DNA of 64,000 nucleotides from an uncultured Bacillota bacterium. GTDB lineage: Bacteria > Bacillota_I > Bacilli_A > RFN20 > CAG-826. Within the stretch, counting starts at the first letter, position 1. The number at the start of each line of letters is the position of its first letter. Positions 42,614 through 46,338 of the stretch are shown one piece after another. Below the pieces are notes generated by a model, which saw only the letters and a program-made list of their open reading frames with translations, did not search any database and had not been told where the DNA came from. The position numbers were made by a program, and so were the translations under genes. The DNA is taken from positions 654,316-718,315 of the forward strand of contig CASEPN010000001.1 in assembly GCA_949289845.1 (NCBI GenBank), read 5' to 3'.

Positions 42614-43432
42614 TTATCCAAGCGCCACATCTAGGGCCATCATCAGGGCGAACCCGACGGCGAAGGAAAGGACAAGGATGTTGGAATGCCCTTCTTCCTT
42701 GCTGGGAATCATTTCCTCGACGACTACGTAGATCATCGCCCCGGCGGCGAAGCTGAGCGCATAGGGAAGCACGGGCTCCACGTAGGCGGCGAGAAGGCAG
42801 GCGAGAATCGCCGCCAGGGGCTCGACCACGCCGGAAAGAATGCCGTAGAGGCAGCTCTTCCCTTTCCCCTTCTTCTCGCGTAGGGGGAGGGCGACGGCAA
42901 GGCCTTCCGGGAAGTTCTGGAGGGCAATCCCGATCCCGATCACGAGCGCGGACATGAGGCTCATCGAGCCGTTGGTGAGGAAGGAGGCGATCGCCACGCC
43001 TACCGCAAGCCCCTCCGGGATGTTGTGAATCGTCATCGCGAGGAAGAGGAGCCCTTCCCTCGACATGGAGGAACTTCTCCCCTCCTGAGTGGAGTCCTTA
43101 GGGTGGATGTGGGGCACGAGGACGTCGAGGAGATAGAGAAAGAGGATGCCGACGAGAAAGCCCACGACAGGAGGGATCCAGGAAAGGGAGGTCCCGAGCT
43201 GGGCGTTGCTTTCCTCAAGGGAGGGCATGAGGAGCGAGAAGAAGGAGGCGGACACCATCACGCCCCCGGCGAAGCCATATAGGGCCTGCTGGAGCCAGCG
43301 GGGGCCGGCTCCCTTCCCGAATAGGGATAGGAGGGAACCAAGCACTGTCCCGAGGAACGGGATGGCGATGATGAGGGCCGCGTAGCCGATCTGCGCAGGG
43401 TCGACGTTCATGGAAGAAAGGATGGGTGCCAT
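42614..43432 (-). CDS. ZIP-family metal transporter
   Basis: 272 residues, eight hydrophobic segments, with the metal-binding signatures HNIPEGLAVG and QNFPEG and a His-containing loop (VPHIHP). ZIP proteins import divalent zinc, iron or related ions into the cytosol. It lies 158 bases upstream of rex, read in the same direction. TATAAA ends eight bases before the ATG, so its leader is at most a few bases. Confidence 0.9.
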   Translation of the reverse strand: MAPILSSMNVDPAQIGYAALIIAIPFLGTVLGSLLSLFGKGAGPRWLQQALYGFAGGVMVSASFFSLLMPSLEESNAQLGTSLSWIPPVVGFLVGILFLYLLDVLVPHIHPKDSTQEGRSSSMSREGLLFLAMTIHNIPEGLAVGVAIASFLTNGSMSLMSALVIGIGIALQNFPEGLAVALPLREKKGKGKSCLYGILSGVVEPLAAILACLLAAYVEPVLPYALSFAAGAMIYVVVEEMIPSKEEGHSNILVLSFAVGFALMMALDVALG

Positions 43433-43500: not shown

Positions 43501-43523
43501 GAAAAACCCGGCAGAACCGGGTT
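43501..43523 (-). terminator. Terminator of the csoR-copA operon
   Basis: Minus-strand stem AACCCGG/CCGGGTT followed by TTTCG, after the copA stop. Confidence 0.85.
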
Positions 43524-43540
43524 CAAGATGCGGATTCCCG

Positions 43541-43741
43541 TTATTCGGCCTTATAGCCGGCCTTCGTGACGGCTTCCACGAGCGCGTCGCGGGAGAGATT
43601 CTTCCCCCTGACGAGGGCCTTCTTCCCTTCGAGGGAAACCTCGGCGTCCTCGACCCCCGGAAGGGCGAGCAGCGCCTCCTTCACGTGCTTCACGCACATC
43701 TGGCACATCATGCCCTCGACCTTGATCTCGATCGTTTCCAT
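43541..43741 (-). CDS. copZ: CopZ-like copper chaperone from internal start (candidate)
   Basis: In-frame internal start inside copA: a perfect AAAGGAGGTG (43747-43756) stands 5 bases before an ATG at 43741, predicting a 66-residue protein, the normal size of CopZ, beginning METIEIKVEG with metal site MCQMC. No stop codon separates it from the CopA frame. The CopA tail just before it (GGECPLSCP then a Gly/Lys-rich run) resembles a natural protein end. The free form is a prediction; the fusion may be the only product. Confidence 0.6.
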   Translation of the reverse strand: METIEIKVEGMMCQMCVKHVKEALLALPGVEDAEVSLEGKKALVRGKNLSRDALVEAVTKAGYKAE

Positions 43742-46054
43742 GCTTTCACCTCCTTTCTTTCCCTCTTCCCCGACGGGGCAGGAAAGGGGGCACTCCCCTC
43801 CCTCCTTGCCCCTGACAGGCTTCCAAAGGTTGATGGTCAGCGCGTTCAATACGACGAATACCGAGCTAAGGCTCATCGCCAGAGAGCCGATCATCGGGCT
43901 CAGGGCGATGCCCAGAGGGTAGTAAAGCGCCCCCGTCGCCAGGAAGATGCCAACAACGTTATAGATGAGCGCCCAGAAAAGCCCGAGCCGGATCGTGTGG
44001 AGCGTCCTTCTTGATAAGGAGAAGGCGTTCGCCACGTCCATCAGGTCCCCTCTGAGGAGGACGATGTCCGCGCTTTCCTTGGCAACGTCGGAGCCCGCGC
44101 CGATGGCGATCCCGATGTCGGCGGCGCTAAGGGCCACCGCATCGTTCACTCCGTCCCCCACCATCGCTACGAGAGACCCCCCTTCCTTCTTGAAGGAAGA
44201 GACGATCTCCGCTTTCTCAGCGGGGAGGACCTCGCTCCTCACCTCGTCGATGCCGACTTCCCTCGCAATCGACTCGGCGGTTAGGCGGTTGTCCCCCGTC
44301 AGCATGACCGTCCTTATGCCCTTCGAGGACAAGGCGCGGATCGCCTCCCCCGCACCAGGCTTGACCACGTCCTTGAGGGCGAGGAGGGCGCTCGCCTCCC
44401 CATCCACGAGTACATAGAGGACCGTCTTCCCTTCCGAGCCAAGCTTCGAGGAGATTTCCTTCAGGGAGGCGGGAATGCCATCTCGGAAGAGTCGGGCGTT
44501 CCCCGCAAGGACTTTCCTTCCTCCCACGATGCCCGAAAGGCCGATTCCGTCTAGCGAAGCGAATTCCTCGGCGGAAAGCGCTTCCGTTTCGGGACGGTAG
44601 TCGAGGATCGAGGAGGCGAGAGGGTGCTCGGAGCGTCTTTCCAAGGCGGCGAGGAGAGGATAGGGATCCTCTTCGCCGAGGAGGATGTAGTCGGTGACCT
44701 TCATCCGTCCCTCGGTGATGGTGCCCGTCTTGTCGAAGAGGACGGTCCCGACCGAGCTCGACCTTTCGAGGATTTCGGCGTTCCGGATGAGAAGCCCTGC
44801 CTGGGCGCCTTTCCCGGAAGAGACCATGATGGCGACGGGCGTGGCAAGCCCGAGGGCGCACGGGCAGGCGATGACGAGGACGGACACCGCGAAGTTGAAG
44901 GAGGTCTCGAAGCTTCCGGTCGCGATGATCCAGCCGAGGAAGACGAGGAGGCTGAGGAGGAGGACCGCGGGCACGAAATATAGGGAGATGCGGTCGGCGA
45001 GGCGGGAGATGGGGGCCTTGGAGTCGGAAGCCTCCTTCACCAGGCGGATGATCTGCTCGATGGAGGTGTCCTCCCCGACCTTCTCCGCCTCGATCTCGAG
45101 GTAGCCCGCCTCCAGGATGGCGCTGCTATAGACCGTCTCCCCCGGCCCCTTCAGGCGCGGCATCGACTCCCCGGTGATGTTCGCCTCCATGAGGGAGCCC
45201 TGCCCGGAAAGGATTTTTCCGTCCACGGGGACGAGGGCGCCCTTCCTCACGATGAGGATGTCCCCTTTCCTCACCTCCTCGACGGGGATTTCGCTTTCTT
45301 CCCCGTCCCTTCTGACGACGGCTTTCTTGGGGGCGAGGTCCATCAGGGATTCGATCGCCTTGGTCGTTTTTCTTTTGGAAAGGCCCTCCAGGTATTTCCC
45401 GAGCGAGACGAAGGTCAGGATCATCGCCGCGGAGTCGAAGTAGAGGGAGTGCATGTAGTCGTGGACAGGGCCCATGTCCCCGTGCCCGAGCCCGTATGCC
45501 ATCCGGAAGATCGCATAGAGCCCGTAGACGAGGGAGGAGAGAGAGCCGATAGCGACAAGGGAATCCATGTTCGGCTCCAGATGGAGGAGCCGGAGGATCC
45601 CGTTCTTGAGGTAATGCCCGAAGAGGATGAGGGACGGGACGGTGAGAAGCGCCTGGAGGAGGACGTTCAGGAGGGCGTTCTCCTCCCCCTCGAGGAAGGA
45701 GGGGAGGGGGATTCCGACCATCGGCCCCATCGAGACGTACATCAGGAGAAGAAGGAAGACAATGCCGGCGATAAGCTTTACGAGTTCCTTGTCAAAACCG
45801 CGTTTCTTAGGTTTTGAAATAGGTTTTGCGGGCTTATCCCCTTCCCCTTCGGGAATCGCGCGGTAGCCGCCCCGGCTGACCGCCAGGAGGATGTCCTCTT
45901 CCTGGATCGCTCCGTCCTCCCATTCGACATCCATGCTGTTGGTGAGGAGGGAGACCCGGCATTCCTTCACGCCGGGAAGCTTCCGCACGGCACGCTCGAC
46001 ATGGGCCTGGCAGGAAGCGCAGGTCATCCCTTCGACCAGGAACTTCTTTTTCAC
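43541..46054 (-). CDS. copA: Copper-exporting P1B-ATPase CopA with C-terminal CopZ domain
   Basis: 837 residues: N-terminal HMA copper-binding domain (GMTCASC, Cys12 and Cys15), eight transmembrane segments with the CPC motif in VIACPCALGLATP, the phosphorylation motif DKTGTIT, and a C-terminal second HMA domain (GMMCQMC). It pumps Cu(I) out of the cytosol. It overlaps csoR by 4 bases (ATGA). A strong Shine-Dalgarno site and ATG lie in frame near the 3' end (see separate entry), so a free CopZ chaperone may also be made. Confidence 0.95.
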   Translation of the reverse strand: MKKKFLVEGMTCASCQAHVERAVRKLPGVKECRVSLLTNSMDVEWEDGAIQEEDILLAVSRGGYRAIPEGEGDKPAKPISKPKKRGFDKELVKLIAGIVFLLLLMYVSMGPMVGIPLPSFLEGEENALLNVLLQALLTVPSLILFGHYLKNGILRLLHLEPNMDSLVAIGSLSSLVYGLYAIFRMAYGLGHGDMGPVHDYMHSLYFDSAAMILTFVSLGKYLEGLSKRKTTKAIESLMDLAPKKAVVRRDGEESEIPVEEVRKGDILIVRKGALVPVDGKILSGQGSLMEANITGESMPRLKGPGETVYSSAILEAGYLEIEAEKVGEDTSIEQIIRLVKEASDSKAPISRLADRISLYFVPAVLLLSLLVFLGWIIATGSFETSFNFAVSVLVIACPCALGLATPVAIMVSSGKGAQAGLLIRNAEILERSSSVGTVLFDKTGTITEGRMKVTDYILLGEEDPYPLLAALERRSEHPLASSILDYRPETEALSAEEFASLDGIGLSGIVGGRKVLAGNARLFRDGIPASLKEISSKLGSEGKTVLYVLVDGEASALLALKDVVKPGAGEAIRALSSKGIRTVMLTGDNRLTAESIAREVGIDEVRSEVLPAEKAEIVSSFKKEGGSLVAMVGDGVNDAVALSAADIGIAIGAGSDVAKESADIVLLRGDLMDVANAFSLSRRTLHTIRLGLFWALIYNVVGIFLATGALYYPLGIALSPMIGSLAMSLSSVFVVLNALTINLWKPVRGKEGGECPLSCPVGEEGKKGGESMETIEIKVEGMMCQMCVKHVKEALLALPGVEDAEVSLEGKKALVRGKNLSRDALVEAVTKAGYKAE

Positions 46055-46338
46055 CTAGTCCACCTCCTAACGAGCTCGTAGGCTTCCTCCATCGCCCCGG
46101 CGCCCTCTTCTTCCACTTCCTTGACCACGCAGGTGCGGAGATGCTTCTCGAGAATCTCGGTGGCAAGGGAACGGACGGCGCGCTCGATCGCCGATAGCTG
46201 GAGAAGGAGGTCGGCGCAGTAGCGGTCCTCGTCCACCATCCTCCTGACCCCGCCGACCTGGCCTTCGATGCGGGCCAGCCGGTGGTCGAGGGACTTCTTT
46301 TCTTCCTCGCTCCGATGAGTTTTCCTGCGCTTGTCCAT
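46051..46338 (-). CDS. csoR: Copper-sensing repressor CsoR
   Basis: 95 residues of the CsoR/RcnR family. The Cu(I) ligands Cys41, His66 and Cys70 are all present. It binds DNA when copper-free and releases it on Cu(I) binding, raising copper exporter expression. It leads the csoR-copA operon, and a palindromic operator sits over its own promoter. TATATT ends 8 bases before the ATG. Confidence 0.94.
   Translation of the reverse strand: MDKRRKTHRSEEEKKSLDHRLARIEGQVGGVRRMVDEDRYCADLLLQLSAIERAVRSLATEILEKHLRTCVVKEVEEEGAGAMEEAYELVRRWTR

Follow-up and report, generated by a model that had tools for sequence, protein, structure and literature searches.

In-frame internal initiation occurs in bacterial genes, and the short forms of ArcB and CheA are examples. 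In the copper ATPase CopA of Archaeoglobus fulgidus, one metal-binding domain (MBD) is N-terminal, and one is C-terminal. This CopA, with its two MBDs, works with CopZ (PMC11970713). In Escherichia coli, frameshifting allows copA to encode the pump along with a free copper chaperone, a small HMA protein (Meydan et al. 2017; Drees et al. 2017, both as cited in PMC10187127). In the open-licence literature, which leaves out most subscription papers, we found no earlier report that copA contains an internal start.

Here, we describe a copA gene in the window, i.e., the whole 64-kb stretch of DNA that was analyzed. As in the case of E. coli copA/CopA(Z), a pump and a small free HMA chaperone would come from one gene; however, E. 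coli copA frees the N-terminal HMA domain by frameshifting, whereas copA of the window would free the C-terminal HMA domain, which is most likely CopZ by descent, by an internal start. Separate, closely spaced copA-copZ pairs, e.g., in Listeria monocytogenes, have the same gene order, the CopZ-type domain, and a Shine-Dalgarno (SD) sequence at the end of copA, and the L. monocytogenes pair also has the two genes in the same reading frame, as in the window. These pairs are divided by a stop codon, while copA of the window has none, so that the pump also carries the domain. As in internal initiation of the ArcB/CheA type, a downstream in-frame start is proposed to yield either the C-terminal domain on its own or a shortened form; unlike in those cases, the nested product would be a complete metallochaperone, and the pattern extends over several phyla. 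A. fulgidus CopA resembles CopA of the window in being a Cu ATPase with two MBDs, but A. fulgidus CopZ is a separate protein, unlike the nested copZ.

RESULTS

copA of the window encodes a Cu(+) ATPase with two HMA domains

copA extends over 43541..46054 on the minus strand and encodes a P1B-type Cu(+) ATPase of 837 amino acids (aa), with a GTG start codon at 46054 and a stop codon ending at 43541. The protein scores 538 bits against TIGR01511 (cut-off, 397 bits) and contains the CPC and DKTGT motifs as well as GMTCxxC in the N-terminal HMA domain; by this score and these motifs, it belongs to the P1B-1 Cu(+) ATPases (CopA). HMA was matched in two stretches, one N-terminal and one C-terminal, i.e., copA is a fused copA-copZ gene.

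Upstream of copA is a gene for a csoR-family repressor (46051..46338, minus strand; PF02583, 92.3 bits). Based on the coordinates, its stop codon overlaps the GTG start codon of copA, and the two genes are, therefore, probably co-transcribed. The SD of copA itself, TAGGAGGTGG (approximately 46061..46070, minus strand; −11.5 kcal/mol), is located inside the end of the csoR-family gene. Directly 3′ of copA, reading the sequence by eye, we noticed a terminator-like hairpin, AACCCGGTTCTGCCGGGTTTTT (approximately 43505..43526, minus strand). The gene directly downstream of copA, at 42614-43432 of the window and on the same (minus) strand, encodes a ZIP-family metal transporter; there is no SD in the stretch before its listed ATG, and its true start may differ.

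A strong SD precedes an in-frame ATG at the boundary to the C-terminal HMA domain

The linker that joins the last transmembrane helix to the C-terminal HMA domain (approximately 43742..43828, minus strand) carries an internal SD, AAAGGAGGTG (43747..43756, minus strand; −12.2 kcal/mol). This SD is located 5 nt before an ATG codon (43739..43741, minus strand) that is in the copA frame and just before the C-terminal HMA domain, and the domain boundary on the minus strand reads ...GAG GGA AAG AAA GGA GGT GAA AGC ATG GAA ACG ATC.... From the internal ATG at 43741 to the stop codon ending at 43541, the frame comprises 66 residues. A sequence-only reading of this DNA had pointed to AAAGGAGGTG followed by the in-frame ATG at 43741 and to a 66-residue HMA product of normal CopZ size. 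Every detail of that account that can be read from the sequence was right, and 66 aa fits a single HMA domain of ~60-70 aa.

With SD strength calculated for the duplex with the anti-SD in the 16S tail, the internal SD is the best among the 47 in-frame ATG, GTG, and TTG codons of copA, and copA's own start is weaker (−11.5 versus −12.2 kcal/mol). In the 64-kb window, AAAGGAGGTG is present in one copy on the minus strand and in none on the plus strand. Among control codons, −7 kcal/mol or better was reached by 8 of 455 in-frame CopA ATGs in relatives, a comparison in which the choice of internal start slightly favors better SDs and to which nearest-start counts (see below) are preferred. In a second set, 37 of 1195 such ATGs reached this value. 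Because few control ATGs reach such an SD strength and the site is placed exactly at the domain boundary, chance would not be expected to produce this arrangement. The local RNA fold leaves the internal SD mostly unpaired, while the internal ATG is predicted to be paired in a helix, which speaks against initiation there; we conjecture that translating ribosomes might open this helix.

The C-terminal HMA domain is most likely CopZ by descent

The predicted nested gene, copZ (43541..43741, minus strand, in the copA frame), would encode a free copper chaperone of 66 aa. Its product covers the entire length of an HMA domain (Pfam PF00403, 60.3 bits; cut-off, 24.8), has the CopZ architecture (a single HMA domain of ~60-70 aa with GMxCxxC), and resembles solved copper chaperones and MBDs of Cu-ATPases. 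The best curated match is the CopZ family NF047957 with 77.8 bits for the nested product alone, which is under the NCBIfam equivalog cut-off of 85; hence, we name the domain CopZ-like based on tree and synteny and not based on the equivalog. We placed 88 HMA domains in a tree, which has few columns and little resolution at most inner forks but supports the split between N-terminal domains and C-terminal/stand-alone domains. The N-terminal CopA domains form one clade (support, 98), and the C-terminal domains intermingle with stand-alone CopZ proteins encoded beside unfused copA. Thus, the C-terminal domain belongs by descent with the stand-alone CopZ proteins, not with the N-terminal CopA domains, and is most likely a CopZ. 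The possibility that it is a copy of the N-terminal HMA domain was rejected based on the same tree.

The internal start is conserved at the level of nucleotides in the order

Among the 61 genomes searched first, many have the same fusion, with ~40-93% identity. We read 130 CopA ends from these earlier loci and from a survey of 279 genomes belonging to the order; 93 of these ends are fused. An in-frame ATG or GTG located 4-13 codons before GMxC is present in 83 of the 93 fused relatives, and at 72 of those 83 starts, the SD energy is −7 kcal/mol or better (nearest-start counts). Synonymous reshuffling of the five upstream codons gave a null mean of −4.0 compared with −9.2 observed (Wilcoxon p 6e-15); the fused sequences are kin, and this p value is no count of independent events.

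GGAGG occurs in two codon phases, i.e., AAA GGA GGT (Lys-Gly-Gly) and AAG GAG GAA (Lys-Glu-Glu), at a near-equal distance to the start, while the residues and length of the linker vary freely among relatives. The two codon phases of the SD, the unrelated linker residues, and the excess over the synonymous null together argue that the nucleotides, and not the protein, are conserved. In a relative with 93% identity (G018), the internal ATG is replaced by GTG, and GTG or TTG is the internal start in other loci; these swaps alter the residue and would leave the start function intact. As a natural control, we used other P-type ATPases that have a second HMA domain at the N terminus; none of seven such domains has a start preceded by an SD, while CopAs with two C-terminal HMA domains have such a start at the last HMA domain in three of three cases. 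With an SD and a start codon in frame, both conserved beyond protein constraint, the locus has the sequence features expected of a nested in-frame gene that would be read by internal initiation.

The fusion with an internal start extends beyond the order

A second collection was obtained by scanning genomes with a C-terminal alignment and without selection for an SD; it includes a few genomes of the order already counted. An internal start is present in 79 of the 80 fused loci of this collection, which are the best 80 loci kept and give no frequency estimate, and their mean SD energy is −9.1 compared with −5.7 for the synonymous null (p about 1e-14). The loci are mostly from Clostridia, Negativicutes, and Coriobacteriia and include Selenomonadaceae, Eggerthella, Gordonibacter (Coriobacteriia), Christensenella, and Bifidobacterium phasiani, as well as MAGs labelled Spirochaetaceae and Elusimicrobiales. 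Outside the order, a phylum-wide sample contained 40 fused loci, and 32 of these have a start at their last HMA domain under a looser SD limit of −4.5. Plasmids of Roseburia sp. 831b (L241) and Ruminococcus albus 7 (L242) have the csoR-copA fusion with the nested start; the SD of Roseburia sp. 831b is weaker (−5.6), and the R. albus 7 gene carries the locus tag RUMAL_RS18915. An artefact of assembly or of MAGs was rejected since the layout is present in many genomes, including the complete R. albus 7 plasmid and other cultured strains. Among loci of the same class, L282 (G476), L294 (G551), and L293 (G513) have CopA frames of ~1000-1120 aa with at least two tandem C-terminal HMA domains.

Unfused relatives, fusion history, and stand-alone HMA genes

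In five members of the same genus, copA terminates in a tail of the KKGE or NKGE type, then a stop codon, and the ATG of copZ follows two bases on; thus, the stop codon in these unfused members separates the SD-like stretch from the start. In L. monocytogenes (record L243:1567-1641), the stop codon TAG of copA is located within the SD of copZ (TCA TAG GAG GAA TAT AAC ATG), and copZ shares the reading frame of copA. As read from these codons, the loss of one stop codon from a Listeria-like arrangement would yield the common Lys-Glu-Glu form. The Listeria records NZ_CP030101.1 (2.9 Mb) and NZ_LR134401.1 (0.8 Mb) are filed as plasmids and look chromosomal by size. On a CopA tree of 128 genes, the fused state changes at least eight times, and the fusion was, therefore, gained or lost repeatedly.

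No stand-alone HMA gene was found in the genome of the window. Such a gene is present in 9 of 10 fused genomes without an internal start; among the 84 genomes that have the start, 38 also have such a gene (Fisher p 0.015). This p value ignores kinship in a set in which some genomes are incomplete, and with relatedness controlled, the association did not hold up, the independent pairs being too few. Start-less fusions usually come with a separate HMA gene, in keeping with the nested start as a source of free chaperone, and the 38 genomes with both indicate that some species have a further source besides the nested copy.

The sequence-only reading had proposed that the internal start gives rise to free CopZ; it had suggested checking whether relatives carry a stop codon that divides the two parts, and a conserved fusion without the site was to refute the proposal. 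Relatives with such a stop codon are present in the same genus, fusions without the site are a minority in which nearly all of those in the order have the separate HMA gene described above, and the fusion and the internal site are conserved together in the order and well beyond. These comparisons support the proposal.

DISCUSSION

We consider it very likely, judging from comparisons between genomes, that internal initiation in the fused copA-copZ gene produces free CopZ, in addition to the pump with its tethered CopZ. The csoR-copA mRNA is probably controlled by the CsoR-type repressor. Ribosomes starting at the GTG at 46054 would synthesize the CopA pump with the CopZ domain tethered at its C terminus, while ribosomes starting on the same mRNA at the internal SD and the ATG at 43741 would synthesize the free 66-residue CopZ, and free CopZ would bring Cu(I) to the CopA pump. 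The comparisons show the site, its strength, its conservation at the level of nucleotides, the descent of the domain from CopZ, and the presence of the same site in unfused relatives; from these, we infer initiation in the cell, a ratio between the two products, and loading of the pump by free CopZ.

Alternatively, separate copA and copZ genes lost the stop codon between them, the old ribosome-binding site of copZ survives without a function, and only the fused pump matters. This idea agrees with the unfused copA-copZ pairs in the same genus and in Listeria, in which the SD is located at or inside the end of copA, as well as with the repeated changes of the fused state, by which some fusions may be recent. 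However, fused CopAs down to ~45% identity retain the SD and the start in two codon phases and with a scrambled linker, and a relic would decay over such a distance; we regard this explanation as unlikely. The position of the site in the interdomain linker just past the last transmembrane helix is also what would be expected if an SD-like stretch slowed elongation between domains for folding or membrane insertion without any initiation. That a start-type codon is kept at a start-like distance, including by the residue-altering changes to GTG and TTG, and that comparable N-terminal linkers between HMA domains are without such a site, make pausing very unlikely.

Linkers rich in K, E, and G might contain SD-like sequences by chance, and linkers of the KGGE type have ~−9 kcal/mol even after synonymous shuffling. 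By contrast, shuffled linkers of the KEE type have ~−2 to −4 kcal/mol compared with near −11 observed, the same nucleotides code for different residues in the two phases, and the p values overall and in the second set are about 6e-15 and about 1e-14, respectively; such an effect of composition is, in our assessment, extremely unlikely. Finally, programmed frameshifting after the N-terminal HMA domain could yield a free chaperone in place of an internal start, as is known for E. coli copA (cited in PMC10187127). Nucleotides 180 to 420 of copA contain no in-frame slippery heptamer of the type X XXY YYZ, leaving this explanation with next to no probability; for the same reason, copA of the window was rejected as an E. 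coli-type CopA(Z) frameshift gene.

Returning to internal initiation, we think it likely that the dual-start copA-copZ gene is conserved over several phyla, has been missed by annotation, and is a common route to CopZ in gut bacteria, with one tethered copy per pump and a pool of free CopZ whose size depends on internal initiation, and that it arose repeatedly when copA lost a stop codon overlapping or abutting the ribosome-binding site of copZ. This arrangement would represent a third route to a copper pump and its chaperone, beside separate genes and the frameshifting in E. coli, and suggests that production of both from one gene was selected more than once. Because the fusion comes and goes among close relatives, the roles of tethered and free chaperone can be tested by comparison. 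Genomes in which the ATPase alone is listed would seem to be without CopZ. In both cultured genomes that we checked, i.e., those of Roseburia sp. 831b and R. albus 7, the locus is annotated as a single ATPase gene.
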